Below, one piece after another: positions 36,621-53,301 of a stretch of 64,000 nucleotides of DNA. The notes below the pieces were generated by a model that did no database searches, was not told where the DNA came from, and saw only the letters and a list, made by a program, of their open reading frames with translations. A program made the translations under genes and the position numbers. The DNA lies in the NCBI GenBank assembly GCA_027064085.1, contig JAMOQH010000188.1, positions 7,349-71,348 on the forward strand, in the 5' to 3' direction. Origin of the DNA: a bacterium (GTDB taxonomy: Bacteria; UBP6; JAFGXH01). Position 1 is the first letter of the stretch. The number at the start of each line of letters is the position of its first letter.

Positions 36621-37858
36621 TATTTCTTTCCCCTTACAAGATTAATAATAGTAAAACTAACAGTAGAACTCATCATAAGCCCAGAAATTAATAAAGTTAA
36701 AGAATTATCATAATAAAAACCTATTTCTATCGTAATTATGGAGCTTACTCCAATAAATAATTGTATAAAAGCTAATTTTAATTGCTTGTTTGATAGCATC
36801 TTTTTAAAACCTTCTTGTAGCTCTTGTGTTGAATTGTTTTTTTGTATTGTTGGGTAAATAGCATAAATCATACCTATAAATGAAAGAGTTATCCATCCTA
36901 AAAGAGCTGCATGAGTATGAGACTTATATATCCACATATTTATATCTGCTAATCTTGAGCCATATTCTCTACCTTGTAAGTAGTAAATATTCATAACTCC
37001 AAAAACTCCTGTTAAGAGCAGTAAGCTTACTCCTGAAATTAAGAATAAAAATGTTGGATGTTTAAATTTTTCTTTATAAAATTTAATTAAAAACTTTAGT
37101 ATAATTAAAAATATAATTAAAACTCCAAGTATTAAAATATTGCTAGAAATCATCATACCTAAATATAAATCCATTAATATTAGTACTAAGAATAATAATA
37201 CTCCTCCAACAAAAGTATAAAACCAATAATCAAAGAACTTTTTCACTATTCCTTTTTTATTATTTTGTATACTATATGAATAAATAAAACCCATAGTTGA
37301 AATTGATAAAGGAAATGACGAACCTAAAAAGTATGTTGACTCAGTAATAAAGAATGGTATTAGTGATAAATCAGGAAATTGTTCCTTTAAACCTAAAACA
37401 AATAACCCTAATGCAGCATTTAGTAAAAATATTACATCAAAAATATAATATCTAGCTGAAATATCTTTCCAAATTTCAGAAATACTCAATACTTTAAATA
37501 TTTCATATAGTGCATGAGAAGAAGAGGCCATTAGCATTAAAGCAACAACTATTTTAAGTACATTAATTTTAAATACGATAGCAAAAGTTATTAACACTAA
37601 TGAAATTAAGATATTTATAATGTATAAAATTTTAGTTTTAGTGTTTATTTTAAGTTGTGGATAAATTGAATTTGTTAAATAACGATTTAATATTAGTATG
37701 GATAAATTTCCAAAACCAATAAAAAAAATGTATGGGTGTAATAAAAGCAGAATCTTGCTATTCAAATAGCTTCCCAAAGCTCCTAGGGTTATTGCAGTAG
37801 AGGCAATATAAACTGCTAGTATTACATAAATTTTAAATAATTTTTTTTCAGTTATCAA
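36617..37858 (-). CDS. Polytopic membrane protein, possibly heme-copper-oxidase-like
   Basis: The 413-residue protein has about twelve hydrophobic spans and short loops. Histidines in or near membrane spans occur at [22 protein letters not shown] and [16 protein letters not shown], the last followed by GMIYAIYP. This H.H...LGW....G..Y...P pattern recalls cytochrome oxidase subunit I-like and NnrS-like membrane heme proteins, but I cannot name a family with confidence. It may bind heme. Monocistronic, convergent with the second malic enzyme and divergent from the metalloprotease. Confidence 0.7.
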
Positions 37859-38023
37859 AACTCCTCCTATTTAACTACCTGAATATAACAAAAAAAATGA
37901 ATAAATTAAACCAAATAATCAAGGCATAATAAAATCTAATATTATTTCGGAGTAAATATAATTTTATCAAACTTGAATATTTTTATAGTAAATGATAGTC
38001 TAATTTATATTTTGAGGTTCGAT

Positions 38024-39286
38024 ATGTATAAAATAACTCTATTTTTACTAGTATTTGTTAATATTAATGCGTTTTCAAAAGAAATTACCCAAAAAGATAA
38101 GGAATTAATCTTTAAAAAAGCTGATGATATTATGTTAAAAATAGCCACTTACGGCCAGAGAAAGCCAAATTTAACGGTAAAAAAGGCTTTAACTTCTAAG
38201 CAGGGTGTAAAATTATATCTAGATGTTGAATTAAAAAAACAATATAAAGGAAATCAGTTTTTAGCAGAAGAACAGGTTTTAAAACTTATGGGACTCATAA
38301 ATCATGATATTGATTATGAAAAAGCAATAAAAAATGTTTTATCCAAAGAAGTAGCAGGATATTACAACCCTAAAAATAATACTATGTATATAGCAGATTG
38401 GCTCCCTTTGTCTCAACAGGAAATTGTGCTTGCACATGAATTATTTCATGCTGTTCAAAGGCAAAATTATCCAGCTATGGAAAAAATGATGGATGAAGAT
38501 AATTCAAATTCAGATTCCAAACTTGCAATATCATCTATATTAGAAGGTGAAGCTACTGCTATTATGTTGGATTATGAAGGTGTTATAAAAAGAAAATCAA
38601 ATATGTCATTTGATAAAATTCCTGCACTTGAATTCTTTTTTAATATGTCTATGGCAATGAACCCAAGTCAGTCTTTTAAAAAATACTCAAAATATCCTCA
38701 GATTATGATGGGAATAATGATATTTCCATATATTAAAGGTTTAATTTTTCTAAAGTATTTTAAGCAACATGGAGGCTGGAAAGCAATTGATAATGTTTAC
38801 AAAAGACTCCCTCTCTCTACAGAACAAATTATACATGTAGATAAATATCTTGCAAATGAGAAGCCAATTATTATAACGCTAGATAATAAGGAAAATATTT
38901 TAAGTGGGTGCAAATATATTGATAAATCAATGTTTGGAGAGGCTTTCTTGTATACAATTTTTAAAAATGATATGCTCAATAAAACTAATATAGAAGATGC
39001 AGAAGGTTGGAATGGTGATAAAATTTTTATTTATAAATGTGATAATCAGTATTCTGCAGTTTTTATTTCAGAATGGGATACCCCAAAGGATGCCAAAGAA
39101 TTTTTTAGAGCAATTAAGTATTTCTTTAAAGATTCTACTAGTGGCAAATTAATAAAAAATCAAAAAAGAATGTTTAAAATCAAAAAAGCAAAAAATAAGT
39201 ACTATGTTGCTAAAATAAAGAATAAAAAAGTTGTTGTATTTTTAAATATCAATAAGGAGCTTCTTAAAAAATTACCAAATTTCTGA
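38024..39286 (+). CDS. Secreted zinc metalloprotease-like protein (HELFHAVQ)
   Basis: I place the start at the ATG at 38024, with GAGG ahead and a signal peptide directly following (MYKITLFLLVFVNINAFS); an upstream ATG adds 17 residues without reason. The sequence has AHELFHAVQRQ around residues 130-140 in the mature numbering and, about 35 residues on, ILEGEATAIML, giving the HExxH plus Glu zinc site of gluzincins. Similar HELTHALQ proteins are frequent in Myxococcota. It is probably periplasmic or outer-membrane associated. The Lys-rich C-terminal part (about 370-420) is predicted beta-rich and of unknown role. Confidence 0.8.
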   Translation: MYKITLFLLVFVNINAFSKEITQKDKELIFKKADDIMLKIATYGQRKPNLTVKKALTSKQGVKLYLDVELKKQYKGNQFLAEEQVLKLMGLINHDIDYEKAIKNVLSKEVAGYYNPKNNTMYIADWLPLSQQEIVLAHELFHAVQRQNYPAMEKMMDEDNSNSDSKLAISSILEGEATAIMLDYEGVIKRKSNMSFDKIPALEFFFNMSMAMNPSQSFKKYSKYPQIMMGIMIFPYIKGLIFLKYFKQHGGWKAIDNVYKRLPLSTEQIIHVDKYLANEKPIIITLDNKENILSGCKYIDKSMFGEAFLYTIFKNDMLNKTNIEDAEGWNGDKIFIYKCDNQYSAVFISEWDTPKDAKEFFRAIKYFFKDSTSGKLIKNQKRMFKIKKAKNKYYVAKIKNKKVVVFLNINKELLKKLPNF

Positions 39287-39302
39287 AATTACTGAGTAGT
39301 GC

Positions 39303-39331
39303 TTGACATATAGTAATATATATAATAATGT
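39303..39331 (+). promoter_or_regulatory. Candidate promoter of the hybrid kinase gene
   Basis: TTGACA at 39303-39308 and, after 17 bases, TAATGT at 39326-39331, in the gap between the metalloprotease and the kinase. The exact -10 is ambiguous among several TATAAT-like overlaps. Confidence 0.45.
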
Positions 39332-39362
39332 TGAATATAAATAGCTTTTAAATAGAGGGACT

Positions 39363-41228
39363 ATGGATGTTGATAATATTTATTTAGACTTTTTTCGTAA
39401 AACTAGCAATGCTGTTCTTATTGTGAAGAATGATTCTGTTTATTATGCAAATCCGCCCCTACTTGAATTATTTGAATACACTGATGATGAAATTAGAGCT
39501 TTACATCCATCAGATTTGTCGCCTCTGCGTCAAGAAAATGGAAGATACTCTATTGTTGAATCAGATAGGATGATTTCAATCGCAATAAATGAAGGAAATA
39601 ATATCTTTGAATGGAAACATAAGAAAAAAGATGGAACTATATTTCGGACAGAAATAATTCTTACTTCTATAGTAGAGGATGGTGATATTTATATTTTTGC
39701 TTTTATAAAAGATATAAGTAAGAGAAAGATTTATCAAAAAGAATTAAAAATGATTTTGGATGAACAAAATTTTTTAATCAGTAATATTGCTGATTTTATC
39801 TATAAAATAAATAAAAAAGGAGATATTACTTATGTTTCCAAATCAGTTATAAATTTAACCGGTTATACATCTGAAAATTGGAAAAAAAATAGTAATAGTT
39901 ATTTAACAGATGCAAAGAGTAATGAAGTAATTAAATATAATAGAAAAAAAATCTTAAAAAATAAAATAAAAAATAAAAAATTTAATATAGAGATCTTAAA
40001 TAAAAACGGTAATAAATTAATCCTTGAATTAGTAGAGTCATATTATAATAATAATTCTAAAGAAGAAATTATTGGAGTTGCTAAAGATATTACAGAAAGA
40101 TATCAAAATGAAATGATTCTTTTAAAAAGTCAAAAAATGGAGTTAATATCAAGTCTCTCTTCTGGTCTAGTACACGAGATAAATAATAGTCTTTCTATTA
40201 TATTAGGTAATACGGAACTATTAAATAAAAAACTGATAAAAGAAAAAGAATTGGTAATGGAGAATATCTCTAATATTAAAACAGCAACCCAAAAGGCTAA
40301 TGAAACATTAAATCATCTGCTTACAATTTCAAATAAGCAAACTAACTCTTTTAAGAAAATAGATTTAAATGAATTAATTATGGATGTTTTCTCGATACTT
40401 AGAAATAGTTTTGTTAAATCCGTAGATTTAAATTTAAGAATAATAGAACAAGAAGCTATCGTAAATGGAGATTTATCACAGTTACAGCATATGTTACTAA
40501 ATATTTTGATAAACTCCTATCAGGCTATTTTAAATAAAGGAAGTTTTCATGGGAGTATTAATTTAGAAATGAGTAAAACTCAAAAAGAAAACACAAACTA
40601 CTGGAAGATAGAAATAACAGATAATGGAGTAGGTATCCCTCCTAATATCATACCTTTGATTTTTGATTCATTTTTTTCAACTAAAGAAAATAGTAATGAT
40701 TTAGGCTTAGGGCTAACTTCAAGCAAAAATATACTAGAGACCCATAATGGATTTCTTGAAGTAGAATCAGAAGAAAACAAGGGTACAACCGTTAAAATCT
40801 TCATTCCTGTTGATAATTCTATTGTTCAGGAACAGGGTGAAACCAAAGAAGAACATACTGAAAACAAAACAATTTTAATAGTAGATGATGAACCACTTGT
40901 TTTGACAACAGCAAAAGCAATACTTGAAGAATTTGGACATACTGTATTAGCGTCACTAAGTGGAGATGAAGGAATTTATTTATATAAGAAGAATATTAAT
41001 GATATTGCCTTAGTTATTCTAGATATGGACATGCCTAATAAATCAGGAAAAGATGTTTTTTATGATTTAAAAAAAATAAATAATGATGTTAAAGTTATAA
41101 TATCATCAGGATATGAGAATGATGAAAGAATAAGAGATGTTCTTAAGAATGGTGCTAAAGAATTTATAGCCAAACCTTATGGAATATCAAGTTTTATTAG
41201 TAAAATAAATAATGTTTTGGCCAACTAA
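39363..41228 (+). CDS. PAS-PAS hybrid histidine kinase with receiver domain
   Basis: The 621-residue protein has two PAS domains (about 8-122 and 130-248), a HisKA dimerisation/phosphoacceptor region with His271 (GLVHEINNSLSIILGN), an HATPase domain (about 375-485, with DNGVGIP and GLGLTSSK) and a C-terminal receiver domain (about 498-621) with IVDDEP at its acidic pocket and phosphoacceptor Asp554 in VILDMDMP, plus the conserved Lys in AKPYG. No membrane span is seen, so it is a soluble sensor kinase. GAGGG precedes the ATG. No response-regulator transcription factor is next to it; the adjacent minus-strand gene begins its stop at the very next base. Confidence 0.95.
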   Translation: MDVDNIYLDFFRKTSNAVLIVKNDSVYYANPPLLELFEYTDDEIRALHPSDLSPLRQENGRYSIVESDRMISIAINEGNNIFEWKHKKKDGTIFRTEIILTSIVEDGDIYIFAFIKDISKRKIYQKELKMILDEQNFLISNIADFIYKINKKGDITYVSKSVINLTGYTSENWKKNSNSYLTDAKSNEVIKYNRKKILKNKIKNKKFNIEILNKNGNKLILELVESYYNNNSKEEIIGVAKDITERYQNEMILLKSQKMELISSLSSGLVHEINNSLSIILGNTELLNKKLIKEKELVMENISNIKTATQKANETLNHLLTISNKQTNSFKKIDLNELIMDVFSILRNSFVKSVDLNLRIIEQEAIVNGDLSQLQHMLLNILINSYQAILNKGSFHGSINLEMSKTQKENTNYWKIEITDNGVGIPPNIIPLIFDSFFSTKENSNDLGLGLTSSKNILETHNGFLEVESEENKGTTVKIFIPVDNSIVQEQGETKEEHTENKTILIVDDEPLVLTTAKAILEEFGHTVLASLSGDEGIYLYKKNINDIALVILDMDMPNKSGKDVFYDLKKINNDVKVIISSGYENDERIRDVLKNGAKEFIAKPYGISSFISKINNVLAN

Positions 41229-41561
41229 TTATTTTTTAGTGCACTCATATACAATTGTTGTTTCAGGAATAAAAGAGCCCCAAAATGTAAAAATTGTTAA
41301 CATTGCATCTGTAAATGTTGTTGTTACTTCTATTTTAACTGGTTTATTTACATCCGTAAGAAGAGATGATGTTAATACCTTCTTTTCTCCAAGATTCGCC
41401 AAGCCCCAAAAATAATACCAATCTCTTCTTTCTGCTGTTTTTACACATTTCATATCTGAAGTTGCAAGAATTACTGGTTTATCTGGAGCTGCTACAATTT
41501 TTTGAGAACTACAAGAAGAAAATATAAAAATAGACATTATTAAAATTAAAATATATTTCAT
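41229..41561 (-). CDS. Bor/Iss-like lipoprotein (copy 2 of tandem)
   Basis: I start at the ATG at 41561, preceded by GAGG at good spacing and encoding MKYILILIMSIFIFSSCSS, a lipoprotein signal ending in SSC. An earlier ATG at 41573 overlaps the upstream stop (ATGA). The mature part (about 90 residues) has DWYYFWGLANLGE, KIEVTTTFTDAML and TTIVYEC, which resembles Bor/Iss-type lipoproteins (PF06291) in layout: an aromatic-rich start, a strand pair, and a final Cys. It is a paralogue of the gene just upstream. Its stop abuts the kinase stop on the other strand. Confidence 0.7.
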   Translation of the reverse strand: MKYILILIMSIFIFSSCSSQKIVAAPDKPVILATSDMKCVKTAERRDWYYFWGLANLGEKKVLTSSLLTDVNKPVKIEVTTTFTDAMLTIFTFWGSFIPETTIVYECTKK

Positions 41562-41569
41562 TATAAACC

Positions 41570-41899
41570 TCATTTAGTAGTATTGCATTTATAGACATTG
41601 CTTGTTCTAATACTATAAAGACCAAGTAATGATATCACAGAAACAAATCCATCAACAAATGTAACTTCTGTTTCAACTCTAACGGTGTCACCATTTTTAT
41701 ATAATGTTTCAGGTCCTTCTCCAATTTGAAGTAATCCCCAAAAAAGATAGTGACTTTTCTTATAATCAACATATTTACAACCATCTGTATTTTCTGTTAA
41801 GTAAACTTTTGTATTTGGTTTAGCAACGATAGTTTGTTTAACACAAGAAGTGGCAAATGTAATTATTAACATAATAATTATTCCATGAATTAATTTCAT
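41570..41899 (-). CDS. Bor/Iss-like lipoprotein (copy 1 of tandem)
   Basis: GGAGG precedes the ATG at 41899. The lipoprotein signal (MKLIHGIIIMLIITFATSC) is followed by a mature region with SHYLFWGLLQIGEG, VRVETEVTFVDGFVSVIS and SNVYKC, parallel to the second copy's FWGL, VTTTF and VYEC. The pair probably arose by tandem duplication. Known Bor and Iss proteins confer serum resistance; whether that applies here is not known. Confidence 0.7.
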   Translation of the reverse strand: MKLIHGIIIMLIITFATSCVKQTIVAKPNTKVYLTENTDGCKYVDYKKSHYLFWGLLQIGEGPETLYKNGDTVRVETEVTFVDGFVSVISLLGLYSIRTSNVYKCNTTK

Positions 41900-42010
41900 A
41901 TAACCTCCAACATAATAAATTTACTCTAACACTTTAAAATATATAATGTCAAAAATTTTGTTTTTTTTGCTTAAGATAACTTGAATTAATAAAAAAATGG
42001 ATAAAAAAAC

Positions 42011-42038
42011 TTGACTTGACTTTTTATTTATGTATAAT
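42011..42038 (+). promoter_or_regulatory. Promoter of rplM-rpsI
   Basis: TTGACT at 42011-42016, 16 bases, then a perfect TATAAT at 42033-42038. It lies 31 bases before the rplM start codon, consistent with strong ribosomal-protein expression. Confidence 0.75.
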
Positions 42039-42069
42039 CACTAGGCTTATAGAGTTTTGGGAGTACAAA

Positions 42070-42507
42070 ATGAAAACCTTCTATGCTAAAAACGAAAATA
42101 TAGAAAGAAAATGGTATGTGGTAGACTTAAAAGATAGAACTTTAGGTCATGTTTCAGTTGAAATTGCAAATATATTAAGAGGTAAGAATAAGCCTACTTA
42201 TACACCTGGTGTTGATACTGGTGATTTTGTTATTGTGATTAATGCTGATAAAATTAAATTAAGTGGTAATAAATGGAATAATAAGAAATATTACTTCCAT
42301 TCAAAATATGTTGGACATATGAAAACATTTACTGCTACAGAGTTAATTAACAGAAGACCTGAGCTAATGGTAAGAAAAGCTATTACAGGAATGTTGCCTA
42401 AGAATAAATTATCAAGAAAGGTTTTAAAGAAACTTAAAATTTATGCTTCAGAAACTCATCCACATGTAGCTCAAAACCCAGAAGTTCTTGAGTTAAATAC
42501 AAAATAA
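42070..42507 (+). CDS. rplM: 50S ribosomal protein L13
   Basis: I take the ATG at 42070 (MKTFYAKNENIERKWYVVD), preceded by GGGAG; an upstream in-frame ATG lies within the promoter and is not credible. The 145-residue product has normal length and motifs (LGHVSVEIANILRGKNKPTY, the ILR..NKP loop, and GMLPKNKLSRK at the C-terminal side). It is an early-assembly protein of the large ribosomal subunit. It is followed after 11 bases by rpsI, the common bacterial pairing. Confidence 0.97.
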   Translation: MKTFYAKNENIERKWYVVDLKDRTLGHVSVEIANILRGKNKPTYTPGVDTGDFVIVINADKIKLSGNKWNNKKYYFHSKYVGHMKTFTATELINRRPELMVRKAITGMLPKNKLSRKVLKKLKIYASETHPHVAQNPEVLELNTK

Positions 42508-42518
42508 GGGAGTAGATA

Positions 42519-42908
42519 ATGTCTGAAAGATTGTTCACTACAGGAAAAAGAAAGTCTTCAATAGCTCGTATTATCATGACTAAAGGTAAGGGAGACATCG
42601 AAGTTAATGGAAGGAAATTGACTGATTATTTTACAAGAGATACTTCAATTCTTATTTTGAAGCAACCACTTGTGTTAACGAATCATGAAAATAGTTTTGA
42701 TATTAAAGTTAATGTTCAAGGTGGTGGTTTGACTGGTCAAGCTGATGCGATTAAACATGCAATAACAAAAGCTTTACTTGCATATGATAAAGAATTAAGG
42801 GCTACTCTTAAAGATGCTGGCTTTATTACTCGTGATGCTAGAATTAAAGAAAGAAAGAAACCAGGGCAACCAAAAGCTCGTAAAAAATTCCAATTTTCAA
42901 AGCGTTAA
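42519..42908 (+). CDS. rpsI: 30S ribosomal protein S9
   Basis: The 129-residue product has the S9 signature (TGKRKSSIARI at the start, GGGLTGQADAIKHAI in the middle) and the basic C-terminal tail KFQFSKR that reaches toward the P-site tRNA. GGGAG precedes the ATG. It completes the rplM-rpsI operon. Confidence 0.97.
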   Translation: MSERLFTTGKRKSSIARIIMTKGKGDIEVNGRKLTDYFTRDTSILILKQPLVLTNHENSFDIKVNVQGGGLTGQADAIKHAITKALLAYDKELRATLKDAGFITRDARIKERKKPGQPKARKKFQFSKR

Positions 42909-43129
42909 GATTTACTTCTTACACTCTGTTCAAAATTTGGGTTTCCTTAAAGCCTATTAATTATAGCTTTTATGCTATGTCTATATGTGGTTAAAGAAAC
43001 TATATTTTTAGTTATTGTAAAACCTAGTGTCTAGTATCTTCAATAAATTTATGTTTTGATTGTTATCAATACAATAATAGTTGTTTATTTTGTCTTTTTG
43101 GTCACATAAGATTTTTAAAAGAAAATTTT

Positions 43130-43158
43130 TTGACATATAATCATTTATAGGTTATCTT
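43130..43158 (+). promoter_or_regulatory. Promoter of the cyclase-CHAT gene
   Basis: A perfect TTGACA at 43130-43135, a 17-base spacer and TATCTT at 43153-43158, 21 bases ahead of the start codon, with GAGG in between. The 271-base gap after rpsI shows no gene. Confidence 0.65.
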
Positions 43159-43179
43159 TGTTTATCTATTGAGGTAAAT

Positions 43180-45678
43180 ATGAGTGATATAGGGAAAATG
43201 CTAAGTGAAATTGATAATCTTAAGAATAAACTAGATAAGAAATACTCTAAGAAGATAACTATAATGTTTACTGATATTAAAGACTCTACTGTATATTTTG
43301 AAAAACATGGAGATATGAGTGGGCGAATGATGGTTGAAAAACATAACACACTACTATTTCCTATTGTAAGTAAATATGGTGGAGTTGTAATTAAAACAAT
43401 TGGTGATGCGATTATGGCTAAATATGATTTTGCCGTAAATGGAGTTAAGGCTGCAATTGAAATGCAAAGAACTCTTAAAGAGTACAATAAAACTGCAAGA
43501 GATAAAATTAGAATTAGGATTGGTTTACATACAGGCAAGGCAATTGTTGAAGAAAATGATGTATTTGGTGATTCTGTTAACTTAGCTGCTAGAATTGAAG
43601 CTGGAACAAAAGCTGAATTTATAACAATTTCTAAAAATACATTAGAAGAAATTTCTGCATATAAAAACATTAAAGTTATACCATTAGGTGTTGTTAAATA
43701 CAAAGGAAAAGAAGAAGAGATTGAAACTTATTCTGTTTTATGGGATAGTTCAATTTTAGAAAAAAGAGTTAGAGGTGAAAATACCTGGTTACACGATAGC
43801 CTACTGATAAAAGTAACTCTTGAAAGCAATAAAATTAAAGTAAGATACAGATACTATTTAAATGAAAATAAAAAAGAAGAAATTTTTGAAAATATTGATA
43901 AAAGATTAATGTCTAAATTTTTAGAATATTTAGAACAACTTCGTTCATCAACACTACAAAAAAATTCTACAAAATTTGATTTTGAAAATTTTAAAAAGGA
44001 AAGTCAAAAAATATATAAAGAATTATTTTCAAGTAGTATTAATGAAATTTTTAATAAATCAGACTTGAAATATTTAGTTATAGATACAGATAGAAATTTT
44101 TCTTTTTTGCCTTTTGGTCTTTTACATGATGGAACAAATTTTTTAGGGTTAAAATATCCAATTTTTAGGCTAATAGACCATTTCAATAAAGTAGATGCTC
44201 AATATACATATTTTACATTTTTAGATTATACTCTTGATGAAGAGATAGAACAAGAGCATGAGTTTTCAATTATAAATAGCATATTTAAAGAAAATAATCT
44301 TGAATTATATGCTCCTAAAAAAGAATATGCTAAATTAGATGATTTAATAAAAACATTAAATAGTATAGGGAAAAAATCAACTCATTTGCATTTTGCTTTT
44401 CATAATTTATTTTCAATAAATTTTGATGATATAAAATTTAAGAATACCTCAATACAGTATAGAGATATAATAAAATCAAACTATAAATTAAGGTATATAA
44501 TTGCAAATTCATGCAAAACAATACCAATTTTAACAAAGTTCATAGGTAAAGATAATAATTTCTTATCATTTTTAAATGATGCAAATATAAAAATATATTT
44601 AGGTAATTTTTTTAATATTTATGATGAAGTTGGATTATATTTTAGTGAAATATTTTATAGTTATATGCTTAAAGGCTATAGTTATCCAGAAGCCTTGTTT
44701 AAGTCTAAACTAAAATTAAGAGATAAATATGGTGAAAAAAGTTTAATATGGGCATCTTATGCTATTTTTGCAGATTCTGTTGAAACAGTTCTTGAAGCTA
44801 TGATTGAAAATATAATAAATGAGGCTAGAGAAACAGTCACTGAGTTAAAAGAGCCTGAAAAAATTCATAATAAAGAAAAAATCAGGGGGGGGGCTGAAGT
44901 AGTTATTGACTCTTCTGTTTCTCTAAATACGAGCAAGAGTATTAACAGATATTTATTTCTAGTAATTTTCCTGATTTTAATTTCTATAGTAGGTCTTTAT
45001 ATATTAAAACATAATGAAGGTGGTGGTGTAGGTGGAAAATTACCCATTACTATGGATAAAAAAGAAATAAATAAAGAATCTGATAAAGTAATTAGAGCTG
45101 AGCCACACAATAGTGTGGTTCAGAAAAACGGAGATAATAAAAATAATGAAAATAAGCTTCTAATGTATAAAGGAGTGCAACAAAGTGATGTTGTTAAGGA
45201 TAATAATGTTGCAATAAAAAAGAATAATAATATAGCTGTAGATAAATCTTTAAATCGTTTGGTGGTTTTGTATTTTGATAATAATTCAAATAATAAGAAA
45301 CTAAATCCTTTGAGAAAAGCTTTGGCAGATATGCTTATTGCTGATATTAGTGATATAAAAAATGTAAATGTTGTGGACAGGGAAAAACTTGAAGATATAA
45401 TAAGAGAGTTAAATTTATCAAAAACCAAGTATATAAAGCGTTCATCGGCCCTTAAAATAGGAAGAATGCTTAGTGCTAAATATATTATGGTTGGTTCTTT
45501 TATAGACCCTCCAATAGAAGGATTACCATTGAGGATAGATGCTAAGATAATTGATGTTGAAACAAGTGAAATAAAATGGGCAAAGGGTGTTACGGGTGAT
45601 AAAAGGAAACTATATAAAATGAAAGATAAATTGATGGAAAAATTTAGAAAAAGTAAATTTTTAAAGGGGTTAAAATAA
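43180..45678 (+). CDS. Class III nucleotide cyclase - CHAT - TM - FlgO/CsgG-like fusion
   Basis: The 832-residue protein joins four parts. Residues about 25-190 are a class III cyclase with metal Asp32 (FTDIKDS) and Asp76 (TIGDAIMA), substrate-type Lys72 and Asp127, and Asn134/Arg138 (GDSVNLAARIE); all catalytic positions are kept, favouring adenylate cyclase. Residues about 200-535 form a CHAT (caspase-like) domain with His408 (LHFAFHN) and Cys445 (IANSCKT), ending in the typical YSYMLKGYSYPEALFKSK and WASYAIF. A single span at about 590-609 follows. Residues about 695-830 (VVLYFDNNS, VDREKLEDII, RMLSAKYIMVGSF, LRIDAKIIDVETSEI) match FlgO/CsgG-type domains. Topology should place cyclase and CHAT in the cytoplasm and the C-terminus outside. 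Nine G at 44885-44893 lie between CHAT and the span. Function is not known; signalling or immunity is inference. Confidence 0.85.
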   Translation: MSDIGKMLSEIDNLKNKLDKKYSKKITIMFTDIKDSTVYFEKHGDMSGRMMVEKHNTLLFPIVSKYGGVVIKTIGDAIMAKYDFAVNGVKAAIEMQRTLKEYNKTARDKIRIRIGLHTGKAIVEENDVFGDSVNLAARIEAGTKAEFITISKNTLEEISAYKNIKVIPLGVVKYKGKEEEIETYSVLWDSSILEKRVRGENTWLHDSLLIKVTLESNKIKVRYRYYLNENKKEEIFENIDKRLMSKFLEYLEQLRSSTLQKNSTKFDFENFKKESQKIYKELFSSSINEIFNKSDLKYLVIDTDRNFSFLPFGLLHDGTNFLGLKYPIFRLIDHFNKVDAQYTYFTFLDYTLDEEIEQEHEFSIINSIFKENNLELYAPKKEYAKLDDLIKTLNSIGKKSTHLHFAFHNLFSINFDDIKFKNTSIQYRDIIKSNYKLRYIIANSCKTIPILTKFIGKDNNFLSFLNDANIKIYLGNFFNIYDEVGLYFSEIFYSYMLKGYSYPEALFKSKLKLRDKYGEKSLIWASYAIFADSVETVLEAMIENIINEARETVTELKEPEKIHNKEKIRGGAEVVIDSSVSLNTSKSINRYLFLVIFLILISIVGLYILKHNEGGGVGGKLPITMDKKEINKESDKVIRAEPHNSVVQKNGDNKNNENKLLMYKGVQQSDVVKDNNVAIKKNNNIAVDKSLNRLVVLYFDNNSNNKKLNPLRKALADMLIADISDIKNVNVVDREKLEDIIRELNLSKTKYIKRSSALKIGRMLSAKYIMVGSFIDPPIEGLPLRIDAKIIDVETSEIKWAKGVTGDKRKLYKMKDKLMEKFRKSKFLKGLK
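44885..44893 (+). repeat. Nine-G homopolymer inside the cyclase-CHAT gene
   Basis: A run of nine G encodes part of Arg569-Gly-Gly571, between the CHAT domain and the membrane span. Gain or loss of one G would cut off the membrane span and C-terminal domain. Such runs are very rare in this AT-rich window and are typical of phase-variable loci. Confidence 0.8.
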
Positions 45679-45793
45679 AACCTAACTAAAATTAATCGGG
45701 TTCAATAATTAGTAGCGAAAAGCAGAGTATTTTAATTGATTTTATGTATAAAAAGTAAAATATTATGAACTTTTTTATTTAAAAACTGTTCAA

Positions 45794-45822
45794 TTGAGTT
45801 TTATTTTAAATAATGCTATAAT
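45794..45822 (+). promoter_or_regulatory. Extended -10 promoter of the tcmP cassette
   Basis: TTGAGT at 45794-45799, 17 bases, then TGC directly before TATAAT at 45817-45822. The expected transcript has a leader of about 95 bases that contains a GGAGG with no ATG at usual spacing, then a weak GGGA just before the tcmP start. Confidence 0.7.
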
Positions 45823-45922
45823 TTTATGCTAATTTTGGAGGAATTAAAAAATAGAGTTTGATATGTACTCCGTTTTTTAGGCAGATTAAATAGGATACAC
45901 ATCATAGTAAACTGGGATTATA

Positions 45923-47044
45923 ATGGCAAAAGATATAAACAAAAAACAATTCGATGAAACAACAAAGCTAAAACTAGATATATTCGGAGAATGTTTTGAA
46001 GAATGGCTACCAGTTTTTATTCATGATAGATACACTTCAGATATTTATATTTTTGACTTTTTTGCAGGAAGTGGTAAAGATATTGAAGATAACTTAGGAA
46101 GTCCTTTGATACTTCTAGATAAAGCTAAAGGAAACAAACTCCAATATTGTTCAAATACAAAAAAAGAAATAAATTTCATATTTAATGAAGCTAAACCTAG
46201 AAAAAGTAAAAAACTTGAAGAAAATGTAATAAATTATATTGAAGAATGTAAAAGTAAAAATAATTGTGAGACATGTTCATATAATTATGAAATTAAAAAC
46301 TTTGAATTTAAAGATATTTTAAATGATGCAAATATAAAATCTATTTTAAAAAATAAAGAATTTGGAAAATTTGTTATTTTAGACCAATATGGTTTTAAAG
46401 AGGTAGATGATGATATATTTAGGCAATTAATATCTTTTCCTAAAGCTGATTTTATATTTTTTATTACATCTTCATCTATAAATAGATTTAAAAAACATCC
46501 AAATATTATAAAATATATAGATACATCAAAAATTGAATTTGATGACCCTAAAGAAATACATAGAGCTGTAACAAAATATTTTAGAGACTTGATTCCTAAA
46601 GGTAAGGAGTATTATCTTCATAATTTTTCTATTAAGAAAGAAAATAGTGGTAATTATTATGGATTAATATTTGGTTCTAATCATACTTTAGGAATGGAAA
46701 AATTTCTAAAAGTTTGCTGGAAACATGATAAGCTTTCAGGTGAAGCAAACTATAATATTGATGATAACTTTGAAAAGGGGACTTTATTTTATGAAAAACA
46801 AAATATAAAAAAAGATCTTATAAGTAAAGAAATAGAAAATGAAATTTTATCAGGAAGTATAACTAGTAATATTGATGGTTTAAAGTATGCTATGCTAAAA
46901 GGTTGTGAACCAAAATTATTTACAGAAGTTGTTAAAAAACTTGAAAAAAACAATAAAATAGAAAGGCTTGGAGATAAAAACTATAGTTCTACAAATATAC
47001 ATAGAGTAAAAAAATATAAAATAGGGATAAAAGATGAAACATAA
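45923..47044 (+). CDS. tcmP: Three-Cys-motif partner protein
   Basis: TcmP proteins are found beside DUF5131 three-Cys-motif proteins, and here that gene follows with an 11-base overlap. The 373-residue product shows a methyltransferase-like Rossmann start (IFDFFAGSGKD, about residues 42-54), a CNTKK/NNCETC cysteine pair region at about 75-120, and VILDQYGFKEVD (about 152), followed by FIFFITSSS. The C-terminal third is winged-helix-like (KLFTEVVKKLEKNNKIERLG). The nucleic-acid or protein target is not established. The unit has its own promoter and sits between unrelated chromosomal genes, which suggests a mobile accessory or defence-type cassette. Confidence 0.85.
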   Translation: MAKDINKKQFDETTKLKLDIFGECFEEWLPVFIHDRYTSDIYIFDFFAGSGKDIEDNLGSPLILLDKAKGNKLQYCSNTKKEINFIFNEAKPRKSKKLEENVINYIEECKSKNNCETCSYNYEIKNFEFKDILNDANIKSILKNKEFGKFVILDQYGFKEVDDDIFRQLISFPKADFIFFITSSSINRFKKHPNIIKYIDTSKIEFDDPKEIHRAVTKYFRDLIPKGKEYYLHNFSIKKENSGNYYGLIFGSNHTLGMEKFLKVCWKHDKLSGEANYNIDDNFEKGTLFYEKQNIKKDLISKEIENEILSGSITSNIDGLKYAMLKGCEPKLFTEVVKKLEKNNKIERLGDKNYSSTNIHRVKKYKIGIKDET

Positions 47045-47783
47045 AATAGAATGGACAGAAAAAACATGGAATCCTTCAGCAGGTTGTACTAAAATGAGCT
47101 CTGGTTGTGAAAATTGTTATGCAGAGGTAATGGCGAATAGATTACAAGCTATGAGTGTAAAGGGGTATGAAAATGGCTTTGAATTCAATATTGTTCCTGA
47201 TAGATTAAATGACCCTTTAAAAAGAAAAAAACCAACTGTTTATTTCGTTAATTCAATGAGTGATATATTTCATAAAGAAATGCCTCTTGATTATTTAAAT
47301 AAAATTTTTGATATTATTGAAAAAACTCCTCAACATACATATCAAATTTTAACTAAAAGAGCAGATAGAATGTTTGAGTATTTTGAAAATAAAAAAATAG
47401 CAAAAAATATATGGCTTGGTGTTACTGTTGAAAATAAAAAGGATGGAATACCAAGAATAGATAAATTAAGAAATCTTAAAGCTAGTGTATTATTTCTCTC
47501 TGTTGAACCATTACTTGAAGATTTAGGTAAGATAAACTTAAAAAATATTAACTGGGTTATTGTTGGTGGAGAGAGCGGGCATAAAGCTAGGCCAATGGAC
47601 GAAACTTGGGTATTAAATATTAAAGAACAATGTAAAGCTAGTAATGTTGCATTTTTCTTTAAACAATGGGGAACTTGGGGAGCTGATAAAGTAAAAAGAA
47701 ACAAAAAAGATAATGGAAAAGTATTAAAAGGTAAGATTTGGCAAGAATATCCTGAATTTATAAAAAAACAATATACAATATAA
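47034..47783 (+). CDS. DUF5131 / phage Gp37-Gp68-like three-Cys protein
   Basis: The start ATG lies inside tcmP (11-base overlap). The 249-residue protein has the motif NPSAGCTKMSSGCENCYAE (about residues 12-30), a CX6CX2C cluster plausibly binding an iron-sulfur cluster as in radical-SAM-like enzymes, then VYFVNSMSDIFHKEMP, YQILTKRADRM, IWLGVTVEN, LSVEPLLEDLG and WVIVGGESGHKARPM, and the end motif FFFKQWGTWG. These all match PF07505, first named from phage proteins. Function is not settled; it is the constant partner of TcmP. Confidence 0.9.
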   Translation: MKHKIEWTEKTWNPSAGCTKMSSGCENCYAEVMANRLQAMSVKGYENGFEFNIVPDRLNDPLKRKKPTVYFVNSMSDIFHKEMPLDYLNKIFDIIEKTPQHTYQILTKRADRMFEYFENKKIAKNIWLGVTVENKKDGIPRIDKLRNLKASVLFLSVEPLLEDLGKINLKNINWVIVGGESGHKARPMDETWVLNIKEQCKASNVAFFFKQWGTWGADKVKRNKKDNGKVLKGKIWQEYPEFIKKQYTI

Positions 47784-47792
47784 GGATTAATC

Positions 47793-47876
47793 ATGAGTGA
47801 AATAAGAGCAGGTTTAATTGAGTCTAAATTAAAAATATATGTTTTTTTGGGGGGGGGAGAAAATGATACAAAATAA
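47793..47876 (+). other. Short ORF that runs through the nine-G tract
   Basis: The frame MSEIRAGLIESKLKIYVFLG starts with AAGGA upstream, directly after the DUF5131 stop, and ends 27 codons later in the overlap with the HNH-like gene. Removal of one G from the nine would fuse it in frame to the HNH-like protein. It may be the real N-terminus of that protein in a phase-variable state, or a leader that does nothing. Confidence 0.35.
47849..47857 (+). repeat. Nine-G homopolymer ahead of the HNH-like gene
   Basis: Nine G follow seven T (47842-47848), immediately ahead of the ATG at 47863. The run also serves as an unusual Shine-Dalgarno sequence (GGGGGAG), so its length could alter either translation or reading frame. 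Confidence 0.75.
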
Positions 47877-48312
47877 AAAAACAAAAAAATATCAATTGAA
47901 TCTATCAATGTCAGCTTTAATAGATCAAGAAAAATATGAAAAATGGCTTAAAAATAAGGCAAGAACTCATTTAAAGCGTGACAAAAAACGAGGAAACATA
48001 AGTTCAACATATGAGTCATATAGAGTTGCAATACATGAAGCTGTTATTAATTCAAATGGTAAAGACGCTTATACTGGTGAAAATTTAGATTGGTCTTTGA
48101 TAAATGAATATAATAATAAGGATTCTAAAAAATATGGAAGAGATTATAAAAAGAGGTTTGCTCTATTACCAACTATTGATCATGTTGGAGATGGAAAGGG
48201 GAAAGCTAATTTTAAGATTTGTTCTTGGCGGACAAATGATGCGAAAAATGATTTATCCTATGAAATATTTTTAGAATTATGTAATAAAATTGTAAATTAT
48301 TCAAAGAATTAA
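47863..48312 (+). CDS. HNH-nuclease-like protein of the tcmP cassette
   Basis: The ATG at 47863 follows the G-run acting as ribosome-binding site; a longer reading from 47839 would start inside the T/G tract. The 149-residue protein is Lys-rich in its N-terminal half (KARTHLKRDKKRG), then shows an HNH-like pattern: DAYTGENLDW (about 74-83), LLPTIDHVGDGKGKANF (about 103-119), and WRTNDAKNDLSYEIFLELC. The DH, N and N-x3-KNDL elements fit a His-Asn-His fold without the zinc Cys pairs. It is probably a nuclease, but that is inferred from motif pattern only. Confidence 0.65.
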   Translation: MIQNKKTKKYQLNLSMSALIDQEKYEKWLKNKARTHLKRDKKRGNISSTYESYRVAIHEAVINSNGKDAYTGENLDWSLINEYNNKDSKKYGRDYKKRFALLPTIDHVGDGKGKANFKICSWRTNDAKNDLSYEIFLELCNKIVNYSKN

Positions 48313-48376
48313 AGTAATTAAGAGGAGAATATTAAATGAAGCATTATTTGAAAATGATGAACTAAGTATTCTGTAT

Positions 48377-48408
48377 AAAAACTATATAATAAAAGTTATA
48401 TAGTTTTT
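48377..48408 (+). terminator. Perfect 13-pair hairpin between cassette and aroC
   Basis: AAAAACTATATAA and TTATATAGTTTTT pair perfectly around the six-base loop TAAAAG, with the T-run inside the 3' arm. It ends 12 bases before the aroC GGAGG, so it could terminate the tcmP cassette or act as an attenuator. No other promoter is evident between it and aroC. Confidence 0.6.
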
Positions 48409-48429
48409 AATTAAGAAAAGGAGGTTAAA

Positions 48430-49730
48430 ATAAAACCTAATACTTTCGGAAACAGATTTAAAATAACAACTTTTGGAGAAAGCCATTCTGTTGCAATGGG
48501 TGTTTTAATAGAAGGTATTAAGCCTAATGTTAAAATAAGTATTAGTGATATTCAAAATTTACTTGATAAAAGGAAGCCAAAGGGAAAATTAACAACTAAA
48601 AGAAAAGAAAATGATGAGCTTGTAATTTTATCAGGTGTTTTTGAAGGAAAAACACTTGGAAGTCCTATTGTTGCTATTGTTTATAATAAAGATGCTAAAT
48701 CAAAGGATTATACCGATATTAAAGATGTGTTTAGGCCGTCTCATGCTGATTTTACATTTTTTAAAAAGTATGGAATAAGAGATTATCGTGGTGGTGGTAG
48801 AAGTAGTGGCCGTGAAACTGTGAGTAGGGTAATAGCAGGAGCTGTGGCAATTTCATTTTTAAGTGACAAGTACAATATAGAAATAATCTCAAAAATAACT
48901 CAAATTGGTCCTTTTAAAACTGATAAATGGGACAAAACTAGTGATAATCTTCCATTTGCCGATGAAACTCAACTTAAAGATATTGAAAAATATATTAATT
49001 CACTCCATGGGGATAGCATTGGAGCAATCATAGAATCCCGAATTGAAAATTTACCACTAGGCATAGGGGAACCCGTTTTTGAAAAATTAGAAGCGAATAT
49101 TGCAAAAGCAGTTTTAAGTATTGGTGCAACCAAGGGGATAGAATTTGGAGATGGTTTTGATTTTGCAAATAAAAAGGGAAGTGAAGTAAATGACCAGATG
49201 GATAAAAGAGGTTTTTATCAAATCATTCAGGTGGAATACTGGGAGGAATATCAAATGGAGAAACGGTTGTATTTAGAACAGTGATAAAACCTACTCCATC
49301 AATATCGAAAGAACAAAAAACAGTTAATGAAAATAATCAAGAAGTAAAAATAAAGATAAATGGACGACATGACCCTTGTATTGCAATAAGGGTAATACCC
49401 GTAATAAACAGTATGGTTGCATTAAGTTTACTAGATTTAATAGGTGATAGCCGTTTAGTAGAACCAAAAGAGAAACTTGAAGTATTAAGAGATGATATCT
49501 CGGAAATAGATAAAAATATTTTTTTATTGCTTGATGAACGATTTAATATAGTAAAAAAAATTATAAAATATAAGAAAAAGAAAAATATAGCTATAGAAAA
49601 TAAAAATATAGAACAAAATTTAATAAATAAAATACAAAAATTAGAACTAAAAAATTTAACAAATGACTTCATTAAAAAATTATATAATAAAATTTTTAAT
49701 GAATCTAAAAGGATACAGAAAGATGATTAA
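48430..49730 (+). pseudogene. aroC: Chorismate synthase - chorismate mutase fusion, frameshifted, ATA start
   Basis: Chorismate synthase makes chorismate from EPSP in the shikimate pathway. The frame opens with KPNTFGNRFKITTFGESHS, but the codon where Met belongs is ATA (48430), with a good AGGAGG ahead and no NTG codon between the preceding stop and it. The next ATG (48496) would remove the GESH motif. Internal motifs are intact (RPSHADFTFFKKYG, DYRGGGRSSGRET, GSEVNDQM). At about 49219-49222 the frame breaks: NHSGGILGGISNGE continues in the minus-one frame, giving a premature TGA at 49282-49284. The second frame runs on through NGRHDPC..AIRVIPV and then LEVLRDDISEIDKNIFLLLD to ESKRIQ, an AroQ-type chorismate mutase domain of about 85 residues. 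Either the gene is recently broken, the sequence has an indel error, or frameshifting occurs. Confidence 0.85.
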
Positions 49731-50718
49731 AATACATATATTACTAATTTTAAGTTCTTTTTTTATGTTTTCATGTGATAAAACAATGAAAAAAGAAGAG
49801 AATAAAGAAATAATACCAGATAGAATACTAAAAAAATGTATAAAAAAGAATTTTAAAGGTAAATTAACAAAAAATAATTTACTTAAAGTAAAAAAATTTT
49901 CATGTACAGGAAAAGATGGATTAATAAAAAATTTTAAGGGAATTAAGTTATTAAAAAATGTCGAATATTTTAATATGAATAGCCAAAATTTAGTTGATTT
50001 GGATTTAGTTGAAAATATGGTTAAAATTAATAATTTAAACTTATCATATAACCATATTGTTGATATTTCAAAAATTAAAAAATTGCTCAAAATTAAAAAA
50101 TTGAATTTAAAATATAATGAAATAAAAGATATTACTGCGTTTATCCATTTAAAGAATTTAGGGTATTTAAATATTGAATATAATATGATTAAAGATATTA
50201 GTCCACTAAGCAAAATGATAAATCTAACTAAAGTAGACTTAGAATATAATAGAATTAAAGAAATTCCTGATTTTAGTAATTTAAAAAAGTTATCGTGGCT
50301 TGATTTAACTACTAATGAGTTAAAAAAATTAGATAATTTAAAAACACTAGTAAATATTACATCTTTATACTTATCCGAAAACAAATTAAATAATATTCCT
50401 GATTTATCAGATTTGGCAAAACTTAAAACCCTAAATGTTCAATTTAATAATTTAAAAAATCTAGAATTTATAAAAAATAATATAAATCTAGAGCATTTAG
50501 ATTTAGAAGCTAATAAATTTAAAGATATTTCATATTTAAGTAATTTTAAAAAACTTACATGGCTTGATTTGGATGATAATAATGTAGAAGAAATTACTCC
50601 TTTATTGAGTTTAGAAAAGCTAAAGAAGTTGTATGTTAAAAATAACTGTATTAAAGATTTTAAAAATTTAAAAATAAGGTATATAAAAGGAAAAAAAGAA
50701 CAGAAAGACTGTGAATAA
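49723..50718 (+). CDS. Leucine-rich-repeat lipoprotein
   Basis: I start at the ATG at 49723 (MIKIHILLILSSFFMFSCDK, lipobox FSC), preceded by AAAGG, overlapping the end of the aroC-aroQ frame by eight bases. After a short polar part the protein carries about nine repeats of the internalin type (LxxLxxLxLxxNxIxDIxxL), for example LGYLNIEYNMIKDISPL and LSWLDLTTNELKKLDNL. It is a surface or periplasmic lipoprotein likely to bind proteins. Lys-rich as the rest of this genome. Overlap with aroC suggests co-transcription. Confidence 0.85.
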   Translation: MIKIHILLILSSFFMFSCDKTMKKEENKEIIPDRILKKCIKKNFKGKLTKNNLLKVKKFSCTGKDGLIKNFKGIKLLKNVEYFNMNSQNLVDLDLVENMVKINNLNLSYNHIVDISKIKKLLKIKKLNLKYNEIKDITAFIHLKNLGYLNIEYNMIKDISPLSKMINLTKVDLEYNRIKEIPDFSNLKKLSWLDLTTNELKKLDNLKTLVNITSLYLSENKLNNIPDLSDLAKLKTLNVQFNNLKNLEFIKNNINLEHLDLEANKFKDISYLSNFKKLTWLDLDDNNVEEITPLLSLEKLKKLYVKNNCIKDFKNLKIRYIKGKKEQKDCE

Positions 50719-50805
50719 TGATTTTGTTTATACTGTTTTCTTTAAAATATTTGATTTAAGGGTTTATATATCTTATTATCTTTATCAAGTTGTTAGGAGT
50801 TAAGT

Positions 50806-53301
50806 ATGAAGAAATATAAAGTAAAAATTAAAGATTTAAGAAACTCATTTGATGAAAAAAATTTAAAGTTTAAAAATACATCTGAAATTGAACCACCTAT
50901 AAGACCTTTTGGGCAACACAGAGCTATTGAAGCATTAAATTTTGGTTTGTCGGTTAAAAATAAAGCTTTTAATATTTATGTTACTGGCCCAACAGGAACA
51001 GGGAAAACATCAATTATTAAAAAAGTATTAAAAGAATTTGTTAAAGATAAAGAGGCAAGTAATGATATTTTATTTTTAAACTGTTTTGAAGACCCTTCAA
51101 AGCCTATTTCTATTGTTTTACCAAGGGGCGAAGGGCGTAAATTTAAGAAAGATATGGAAACTTTTATTAATGATATAAAAATTGAAGTTCCAAAAGCAAT
51201 GAATAGTCCCCTTATAAATGAAAAGAAAATGAAAATAGTGGATAAATATCAAAAATTGGAATCCTCTATTTATCAGGAAATATCTACCTTTACTAAAGAA
51301 GTAGGATTTGCTCTTGAAAAAACGCAAGCAGGTATTGTTGCTAAGCCGGTCAATAGCGATGGTTCATTTATGACAGAAGAACAATTTACTGCACTTACTG
51401 AAGATGAAAAAAATGAAATTGGAGAGCGTCAAGCTAAAATTCAAAGTAAAATGGATGCTGCTGCTCAGCAAGAAACTAAAAATGAAAAAAACTTTAAAGA
51501 AGATATGTCTAAATTTGAAGATGCTGTTGTTGTTTCTGTAGTGAGTCCAATAATTGCATCAATTAAAAAGAACTATAAAAATAAAAAATTAACAAAGTAT
51601 TTTAAAAATTTAAAAGAAAATTTAGCAAAACATAAACAAGTATTTTTATTTAAAGAAAAAGATGCCTCTAATGAGAAAGCACAAGCTTATTTAGAATATG
51701 TTTTTGCCCAATATAATGTTAATTTGTTTATTGATAGTTCAGAAACGACAAATGCCCCTATTGTTTTTGAAAGAAATCCAACATTTAATAATTTATTTGG
51801 TTGGATAGAACACGAAGAGAAGAATGGATATTTATCTACAAATTTTACTAAAATAAAACCTGGTTCTATCCATAAAGCAAATGGAGGTTATTTAGTTATT
51901 CAAGTACTTGATTTACTAAAAAATCAATTGGCTTATGATGAATTAAAGAGAACTTTAAGGAATAAAACATCAAAAGTTGGAGAGAATCCATTTGCAATGT
52001 ATTCTCTTAAACCATTAAAAAAGCTTGAGCCAGAAGATATAGACTTAGATATTAAAGTTATTTTAATTGGTTCAAGTCAGTATTTTGCTATGCTTAATAG
52101 ATATGATGAAGAATTTTCTAGATTATTTAAGGTGAAATCTGATTTTGACCATTTTGTTTGTAAAAATGAAGAAAACTTAGATCAATTTTTCAAGTTTTTA
52201 AAAATGAAAACAGAAGAAAAAGAAATTATGTCCTTAAATAAAGGTGCTGTAGCAGAGTTAATAGATTATAGTACTAAATTGGCAGGTCAACATAATAGAT
52301 TAACCTCTCGTTTAAGCAAGCTTGAAGATATACTTTATGAAGCTAATTATATTGCTAAAACTAAGAATAAGCGTGTTATTTCAAGGGAAAATATTGAAGA
52401 AACTATTAAAAATAGAGATTTTCGTAATGGTAAATTTAAGCAATTAATTCATGATTCAATACATGAAGGAACTACTTTAATTAATATTAAAGGGGAGTCT
52501 GTTGGTGAAATTAATGGTTTAGCTGTTTATTCAATAGATGATTTTTCTTTTGGTATTGCAAGTAAGATAACTGCAAGATCTTATGCAGGAAAGCGGGGGG
52601 TTATAAATATAGAAAGAGATGCTAAATTGAGTGGTAAAATTCATGATAAAGGAATAGGAGTTTTATCCGGGTATCTATCTGGTTTATTTAGGGATATTAC
52701 TCCATTGAGTTTGTCTGTATCTATTTCATTTGAACAAAATTATGGTGGAGTAGATGGTGATAGTGCTTCCTCTACTGAAACTTATGCTATTTTATCTTCA
52801 TTATCTGGTTATCCTATTAAACAAAGTATTGCCGTTACTGGTTCAGTAAATCAAATGGGATTTATTCAACCGATTGGGGGGGTGAATAATAAAATAGAAG
52901 GATTTTTTGCAATTTGTCAACATGGGGGATTAACAGGAGAGCAGGGCGTTATCATTCCTATTCAAAATGTTAAAAACCTGATGTTAAGTAAAGAAGTTGT
53001 GGAAGCTGTTAAAAATGATGAGTTTCATATTTATGCTGTTTCAAGAATAGAAGAAGGAATAGAGATTTTAACTGGTAAGAAATTTGGTAAAGAGCTTAAA
53101 GATGGTGGATATACTAAAAACTCAATTCTGGATAAGGCTTATAAAACTCTCATGAAATTTGTAATTCAATCTTCAGATCAAGTAAAAACAGCAAAAAAAG
53201 CACTTGGTATTAAAGATGATGAAGAAAAAGAAGGGGATAAAAAAGAAAAAGTTGAAAAAAAACCTAAAAAAGAAAAGAAGCCCAAAAAATCCAAGAAATA
53301 A
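50806..53301 (+). CDS. Lon-family ATP-dependent protease (LonH/YcbZ-like)
   Basis: The 831-residue protein carries an AAA+ module with Walker A GPTGTGKT (61-68), an inserted helical region (about 140-280), GGYLVIQVLDLLKNQLAYDEL near 363-385 in the second half of the ATPase, and a C-terminal Lon protease domain with catalytic Ser653 (DGDSASS) and Lys696 (GGVNNKIEGFF). The 43-residue Ser-Lys spacing matches E. coli Lon. It lacks the LonA N-terminal substrate domain, so it belongs to the non-LonA type near YcbZ/LonH. A Lys/Glu-rich tail of about 25 residues closes it. It probably degrades misfolded proteins in the cytoplasm. Confidence 0.92.
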   Translation: MKKYKVKIKDLRNSFDEKNLKFKNTSEIEPPIRPFGQHRAIEALNFGLSVKNKAFNIYVTGPTGTGKTSIIKKVLKEFVKDKEASNDILFLNCFEDPSKPISIVLPRGEGRKFKKDMETFINDIKIEVPKAMNSPLINEKKMKIVDKYQKLESSIYQEISTFTKEVGFALEKTQAGIVAKPVNSDGSFMTEEQFTALTEDEKNEIGERQAKIQSKMDAAAQQETKNEKNFKEDMSKFEDAVVVSVVSPIIASIKKNYKNKKLTKYFKNLKENLAKHKQVFLFKEKDASNEKAQAYLEYVFAQYNVNLFIDSSETTNAPIVFERNPTFNNLFGWIEHEEKNGYLSTNFTKIKPGSIHKANGGYLVIQVLDLLKNQLAYDELKRTLRNKTSKVGENPFAMYSLKPLKKLEPEDIDLDIKVILIGSSQYFAMLNRYDEEFSRLFKVKSDFDHFVCKNEENLDQFFKFLKMKTEEKEIMSLNKGAVAELIDYSTKLAGQHNRLTSRLSKLEDILYEANYIAKTKNKRVISRENIEETIKNRDFRNGKFKQLIHDSIHEGTTLINIKGESVGEINGLAVYSIDDFSFGIASKITARSYAGKRGVINIERDAKLSGKIHDKGIGVLSGYLSGLFRDITPLSLSVSISFEQNYGGVDGDSASSTETYAILSSLSGYPIKQSIAVTGSVNQMGFIQPIGGVNNKIEGFFAICQHGGLTGEQGVIIPIQNVKNLMLSKEVVEAVKNDEFHIYAVSRIEEGIEILTGKKFGKELKDGGYTKNSILDKAYKTLMKFVIQSSDQVKTAKKALGIKDDEEKEGDKKEKVEKKPKKEKKPKKSKK

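Follow-up and report, generated by a model that had tools for sequence, protein, structure and literature searches.

CHAT proteases are widespread in bacteria, yet what they cleave and what triggers them has been established for very few, of which Craspase (type III-E) is the best studied. Therein, the TPR-CHAT protein Csx29 (H615/C658) cleaves Csx30, an inhibitor that binds the ECF-type sigma factor CASP-sigma (PMC10028731). In Gemmata massiliana, a nucleotide cyclase-FGS-TRADD-N-caspase protein has been described and proposed to act in apoptosis or immunity (PMC8195603). All the domains considered below are already known singly, and there are precedents both for a cyclase and a caspase on one chain, in a different architecture (PMC8195603), and for the release of a sigma factor under CHAT control in CRISPR (PMC10028731). 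In the open-access literature searched, a CHAT domain, a sigma factor and the term ECF come together in the Craspase paper alone (PMC10028731), and neither the cyclase-CHAT-TM-CsgG family nor its sigma/anti-sigma operons are described there.

The locus reported here lies in a stretch of 64,000 nucleotides, which is referred to as the window. It encodes, on a single chain, a cyclase, a CHAT domain, a single membrane span and a CsgG/LpoB-like domain. With Craspase it shares the CHAT His-Cys protease domain and, through its relatives, a genetic association with an ECF-type sigma factor and a probable inhibitor of that factor; unlike in Craspase, CHAT is here anchored in the membrane, shares its chain with a cyclase and a CsgG-like domain and is tied to envelope genes, and an envelope input is proposed instead of an RNA input. 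No Cas7-11, CRISPR array or Csx30 was found among the ORFs of window positions 36000-53000 or among those read around the relatives. The G. massiliana protein likewise carries a nucleotide cyclase and a caspase-fold protease on one chain, but with other linker domains, a C-terminal caspase and no reported CsgG/LpoB domain. The closest named CHAT sequence, a stand-alone protein of Leptospira interrogans plasmid pLiSL25, is also encoded beside a sigma-factor gene, but is devoid of cyclase and CsgG domains. As for the individual parts, the N-terminal domain has the fold and catalytic residues of Ma1120/Rv1900c-type class III adenylate cyclases, which lack any CHAT or CsgG fusion, whereas the C-terminal part resembles the LpoB/CsgG/FlgO envelope lipoproteins in its alpha/beta domain, to which the Pfam families CsgG and LpoB match, with a membrane span in place of their lipid anchor tethering it to cytoplasmic enzymes.

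Domain layout of the 832-residue protein

The features of the locus, in window coordinates, are the following:

43180..45678, + strand: whole gene (ATG start) of the cyclase-CHAT-TM-CsgG/LpoB-like protein, 832 aa; ORF, with orthologs of identical order in genomes G001 and G002
43240..43737, + strand: class III nucleotide cyclase domain, about aa 21-186; PF00211, Ma1120 fold match, catalytic residues
43792..44799, + strand: CHAT domain and its N-terminal part, aa 205-540; PF12770 with the region alone, local profile, reciprocal Leptospira match
44401..44403, + strand: His408 codon, CHAT catalytic His position; alignments, invariant wherever rows cover the site
44512..44514, + strand: Cys445 codon, CHAT catalytic Cys position; alignments, invariant wherever rows cover the site
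44885..44893, + strand: nine-G tract, lying in frame after the CHAT domain and before the membrane span; slippage by 1 or 2 bases would truncate the protein to 571-574 aa
44947..45009, + strand: membrane span, aa 590-610; hydropathy scan
45247..45624, + strand: CsgG/LpoB-like domain, aa 690-815, predicted periplasmic; PF03783, PF13036
45923-48312, directly downstream of the cyclase-CHAT gene: TcmP and DUF5131 pair plus a third ORF; PADLOC candidate defence system PDC-M30A/B

An earlier, sequence-only reading of this DNA had proposed the four-part single-chain fusion, and the Pfam matches, the hydropathy scan and the orthologs that keep the domain order bear it out. In a Pfam scan of the full-length protein, the class III cyclase family (PF00211) was matched at aa 21-185 (E 2.2e-21, 76.7 bits against a cut-off of 21.9), and the modelled domain fits the Ma1120 adenylyl cyclase fold with a TM-score of about 0.92 on the target (E 7e-16). 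The residues that had been read as evidence of an intact cyclase (Asp32, Asp76, Asn134 and Arg138) are indeed present and, together with K72 and D127, are invariant across nine aligned cyclase-bearing family members. In class III cyclases, these residues correspond to the metal Asp pair (D32/D76), the adenine-type pair (K72/D127) and the transition-state pair (N134/R138). Judged from K72/D127 only, the product would be cAMP and not cGMP.

The same full-length scan returned no match to the CHAT family (PF12770) at E<=1, and a plain PF12770 search across the own genome was equally empty, which indicates that this CHAT is too diverged for such a search. When aa 186-545 were scanned alone, PF12770 was matched at E 6.7e-6 with 26.2 bits, above the curated cut-off of 24; the assignment is confirmed by the reciprocal Leptospira match given below. 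Three independent results show that the domain is real. Firstly, a local profile, for which 30 CHAT domains were taken from other genomes, aligns with aa 276-328 and then 358-529, in order, and places His408 on the conserved His column and Cys445 on the conserved Cys column. Secondly, a tblastn search of the window protein against plasmids gave the L. interrogans plasmid region as top record (aa 276-529, E 7e-9); besides this one Leptospira CHAT, the search returned rhizobial cyclases. Thirdly, when the Leptospira CHAT protein was used as query against 386 genomes, its sole match in the own genome was this gene (E 1.2e-12). The proposed His408-Cys445 dyad was thereby upheld as to family positions, both residues lying in the CHAT catalytic columns; moreover, His404, Ala406, His408, Asn443 and Cys445 are nearly invariant in a 21-row CHAT alignment. 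In an AlphaFold2 model based on 21 sequences, the cyclase and a portion of the CHAT N-terminus are resolved, but the CHAT core, where contact between His408 and Cys445 would be seen, has a pLDDT of 27-45; an earlier full-protein structure model from 4 sequences had a pLDDT of 32.

The hydropathy scan detected a single membrane span at about aa 590-610 (hydropathy 2.9), the only such span in the protein. Beyond it, Pfam matched both CsgG (PF03783; E 2.3e-9, 37.3 bits against a cut-off of 20.8) and LpoB (PF13036; E 8.7e-6, 26.1 bits against 22.3) at aa 693-801, while FlgO itself reached E 0.02 in the ortholog; of the FlgO/CsgG-like C-terminus suggested earlier, the CsgG-like character is supported. 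The lipoprotein anchor found in CsgG and LpoB is absent, the domain following the membrane span within the same chain, and the C-terminal part is related to CsgG and LpoB at the level of the domain, the protein being neither of the two. Based on the span, the cyclase and CHAT would be cytoplasmic and the CsgG/LpoB-like domain would lie outside the inner membrane, which supports the layout put forward before, with the two enzymatic parts on one side of a single span and the C-terminal domain on the other.

Relatives and their sigma/anti-sigma operons

The other two genomes of this taxonomic family encode orthologs with identical domain order: that of G001 is complete, with 46% identity, and that of G002 is split across two contigs. 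This excludes chance and misassembly, and the gene is neither a singleton nor a chimera. A profile from the two-row CHAT alignment returned just these two orthologs from the genome contigs; the wider family was found by the search with the Leptospira protein, followed by a family profile. The cyclase-CHAT-TM-(TPR)-CsgG-like order occurs in G344 and G067 (one phylum), in G214, and in G291, G386 and G387 (one phylum), the last two adding two cyclase-fused copies to the four scanned with Pfam; G212 and G394 hold contig-end fragments. Pfam detected CHAT (4e-42 to 2e-36) and cyclase (1e-19 to 2e-24) in the proteins of G344, G291, G214 and G067, and CsgG (1e-10 to 5e-7) in three of them, the CsgG-like region of G291 being seen only with the local profile. 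According to phylum-limited searches, the architecture is present in at least four phyla, i.e., that of the window and three others in the sample. As to the earlier remark that no description of this order of domains was known, none was found in the open-access literature searched and the family is apparently undescribed, but the protein is not unique.

CHAT-TM-CsgG proteins without cyclase are common in the phylum of G291, with up to four per genome; the family core is thus CHAT-TM-CsgG, and the cyclase is an N-terminal part gained or lost. In the family tree, where the window protein clusters with the G067 and G344 proteins that carry the cyclase (support 81/99), the presence and absence of the cyclase require three changes, and a single origin of the fusion is compatible with the tree. 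CHAT matches were obtained in 106 of the 386 genomes sampled; no cyclase was encoded near the 30 strongest CHAT loci of this domain-wide sample in the stretch examined, which indicates that the fusion belongs to one CHAT subfamily. No relatives were found in viral contigs.

We then turned to the genes that accompany the relatives. In five loci (L149, L150, L151, L157 and L158, from genomes G344, G067, G214, G389 and G388), the CHAT gene comes directly after a sigma gene and a zf-HC2 anti-sigma-like gene, all on the same strand. The sigma gene, of about 205 aa, is of the ECF type (Sigma70_r2/r4 in G214, Sigma70_r4 in G388), and the anti-sigma-like gene encodes about 240 aa; scans in 3 of the 5 loci showed zf-HC2, and no membrane span was detected in these proteins. 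Downstream of the CHAT gene, several loci encode a protein that resembles a lipoprotein (about 700 aa, TPR and CsgG domains) and a FadL-type outer-membrane protein. In addition, coordinate comparison showed that further CHAT genes of G291, G386 and G387 have such a sigma gene at a distance of 0.9-2 kb. On plasmid pLiSL25 (NZ_CP092665; L107 1957-4981), an unlisted 403-aa CHAT gene follows a sigma gene and a 242-aa hypothetical gene, an arrangement that mirrors the logic of the relatives, with no cyclase; this sigma gene was matched weakly, and the C-terminal part of the 242-aa protein is weakly like the relatives' anti-sigma-like proteins (12 bits). The gene order sigma, zf-HC2 and (cyclase-)CHAT-TM-CsgG is apparently undescribed.

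The position of the relatives beside a sigma gene and its likely inhibitor suggests that the family probably converts envelope signals into changes in gene expression. By analogy with Craspase, the natural CHAT substrate of the relatives is most likely the neighbouring zf-HC2 anti-sigma-like protein, which CHAT would probably cleave upon an envelope signal, freeing the ECF-type sigma factor. The route would then run from the outer-membrane protein and lipoprotein to the CsgG-like domain of the receptor, and on through CHAT and the anti-sigma protein to sigma. Extending this to the window protein, we propose, with confidence that is evenly balanced, a single-span envelope signalling receptor, a diverged member of the (adenylate cyclase)-CHAT-TM-(TPR)-CsgG/LpoB family with cAMP and proteolytic outputs. 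Its CsgG/LpoB-like domain, outside the inner membrane, would read some envelope state, and the signal would pass the single span to control two cytoplasmic outputs on the one chain, namely the cyclase, forming cAMP, and CHAT, acting by limited proteolysis. The data establish the domains, their order, their conservation and the operon context of the relatives; the topology, the cyclase product, the protease activity, the substrate and the direction of signalling are those that we infer, and an envelope sensor coupled both to the production of a signal and to proteolysis, as first suggested from the sequence, is plausible. Against the receptor reading speak the CHAT divergence described below and two features of gene context: no sigma or zf-HC2 genes lie beside the window gene or its orthologs, and no sigma gene adjoins the cyclase-fused copies of G291, G386 and G387.

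These neighbourhoods also bear on the link to cell death or immunity drawn in the sequence-only reading. An anti-phage device, in which phage-induced envelope damage would trigger the cyclase and a caspase-like domain and thereby kill the cell, is in keeping with the caspase-like nature of CHAT, with the occurrence of cyclases in Pycsar defence (PycC matches were weak and generic, at 29 bits) and with the TcmP/DUF5131 pair among the next three genes. However, this pair is not found beside the orthologs, the CHAT region had no match in phage records, PycC matches of this kind are expected from any class III cyclase, and a cyclic-nucleotide effector gene, as in Pycsar, was absent among the scanned neighbours. 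Moreover, the closest relatives, although distant, adjoin sigma, anti-sigma-like, lipoprotein and outer-membrane protein (porin) genes, a setting that points to envelope-to-transcription signalling. We therefore consider the defence role quite improbable, and the proposed link was not borne out.

It is the relatives, more than the window copy, that hold the strongest interest. A CHAT protein tied to the envelope and encoded beside a sigma factor and its likely inhibitor provides a direct, testable substrate prediction. If true, sigma release by CHAT cleavage would be a general principle outside CRISPR, and the added cyclase would make for one receptor with both proteolytic and second-messenger outputs.

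Divergence of CHAT in the window lineage

Alignments indicate that the window protein is a strongly diverged member of the family. Out of 66 positions that do not vary among the other family members, its CHAT domain keeps 25, and those kept jointly by the window protein and its ortholog amount to 18 of 66, dyad included. Between these two proteins, identity is 70% in the cyclase and 52% in the CsgG domain, as compared to 38% in CHAT, the least conserved of the three. The motif around the His reads H-Y/F-A-G-H-A in the relatives and H-F-A/G-F-H-N in the window's family, the window protein having Phe and Asn near His408 where relatives carry Gly and Ala, and residues around Cys445 have been lost. 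Given such divergence, CHAT activity in this lineage is uncertain.

It is possible, although the less favoured view, that CHAT has decayed here into a non-catalytic module for scaffolding or dimerisation, so that the protein would in effect be an envelope-controlled adenylate cyclase only. The fast divergence of the domain fits this view, as do the 48 of 66 family-invariant positions not common to window protein and ortholog and the absence of the sigma/anti-sigma operon, which the window copy has lost. Furthermore, the cyclase paralog nearest to it within the own genome (51% identity in the cyclase region) keeps the cyclase and a membrane span, followed by an NlpC/P60-like domain in place of CHAT-CsgG. 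Nevertheless, His404, His408, Asn443 and Cys445 are present in all three genomes of the window's family despite the divergence, and we estimate the chance survival of both dyad residues at about 7% (18/66 squared). We retain the receptor with both outputs as the preferred reading; for the window protein, a cyclase under envelope control whose CHAT is reduced or retargeted is nearly as likely. With the operon lost, the cyclase most constrained and CHAT the least, the cAMP output may dominate in this lineage.

The aforementioned paralog (L034, G000:C32) has an ECF-type sigma gene 1.3 kb away (coordinates 1964-3958 and 83-676 for the paralog and the nearby sigma gene), and no gene of the own genome matched the operon sigma of the relatives better. 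The top-scoring matches of this genome to that sigma were generic ECF factors (E 6e-11) and were rejected as partners.

The nine-G tract and the surroundings of the gene

Slippage at the nine-G tract would leave a soluble cyclase-CHAT protein, a speculative possibility. It is somewhat more probable that the tract is an ordinary coding accident devoid of regulatory meaning, with the membrane-bound form as the only one: it is absent from the orthologs (L031-L033), and other G9 tracts, with the same AGG GGG GGG GCN encoding RGGA, are found in housekeeping-type genes (L050 and L055). Single-base errors are likewise possible, as indicated by the assembly frameshift in the nearby chorismate synthase gene. 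On the other hand, the genome of 3.65 Mb has 13 sites with runs of at least 8 G, several-fold above the extrapolation from run lengths in the window, the longest of which (12 and 10 G) are in ORFs resembling surface or secreted proteins (L058 and L063). Moreover, GGG accounts for only 8.5% of the Gly codons, and both other frames stop within 3 codons of the tract, which is true for 6% of codons. A second nine-G run was noticed at 47849-47857, within 3 kb of the first, in a genome of 25% GC; being just 5' of the ATG at 47863, it could be a ribosome-binding site.

The most far-reaching reading would be a hitherto undescribed trans-envelope system of several deep phyla, in which an outer-membrane protein and a CsgG lipoprotein signal to a membrane-anchored receptor whose CHAT cuts a soluble zf-HC2 anti-sigma protein to free an ECF-type sigma factor, while the cyclase makes cAMP; in the window, the receptor would stand alone, its nine-G tract switching between a membrane-bound and a soluble form. 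As a whole, we regard this combination as tentative and rather unlikely.

Regarding its surroundings, the gene sits between rpsI upstream and the TcmP/DUF5131 pair downstream, the third ORF of the latter stretch having no family match. The putative rplM (L13), which precedes rpsI, and the putative rpsI (S9) itself were named from their sequence. The G001 ortholog has an amylase-like gene downstream, whereas that of G002 has a transglutaminase-like gene upstream and a pyruvate kinase gene downstream, and no conserved neighbour was found across the three genomes compared (the own one, G001 and G002). The chorismate synthase gene (window 48496-49730) is broken by a frameshift near 49200-49240, which may reflect either an error in the sequence or a true lesion, and the latter half of the gene carries a fused chorismate mutase domain. 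Finally, window positions 41229-41899 (- strand) hold two adjacent small lipoprotein-like genes, relatives of lambda Bor (PF06291), the first matching above the cut-off and the second slightly under it.
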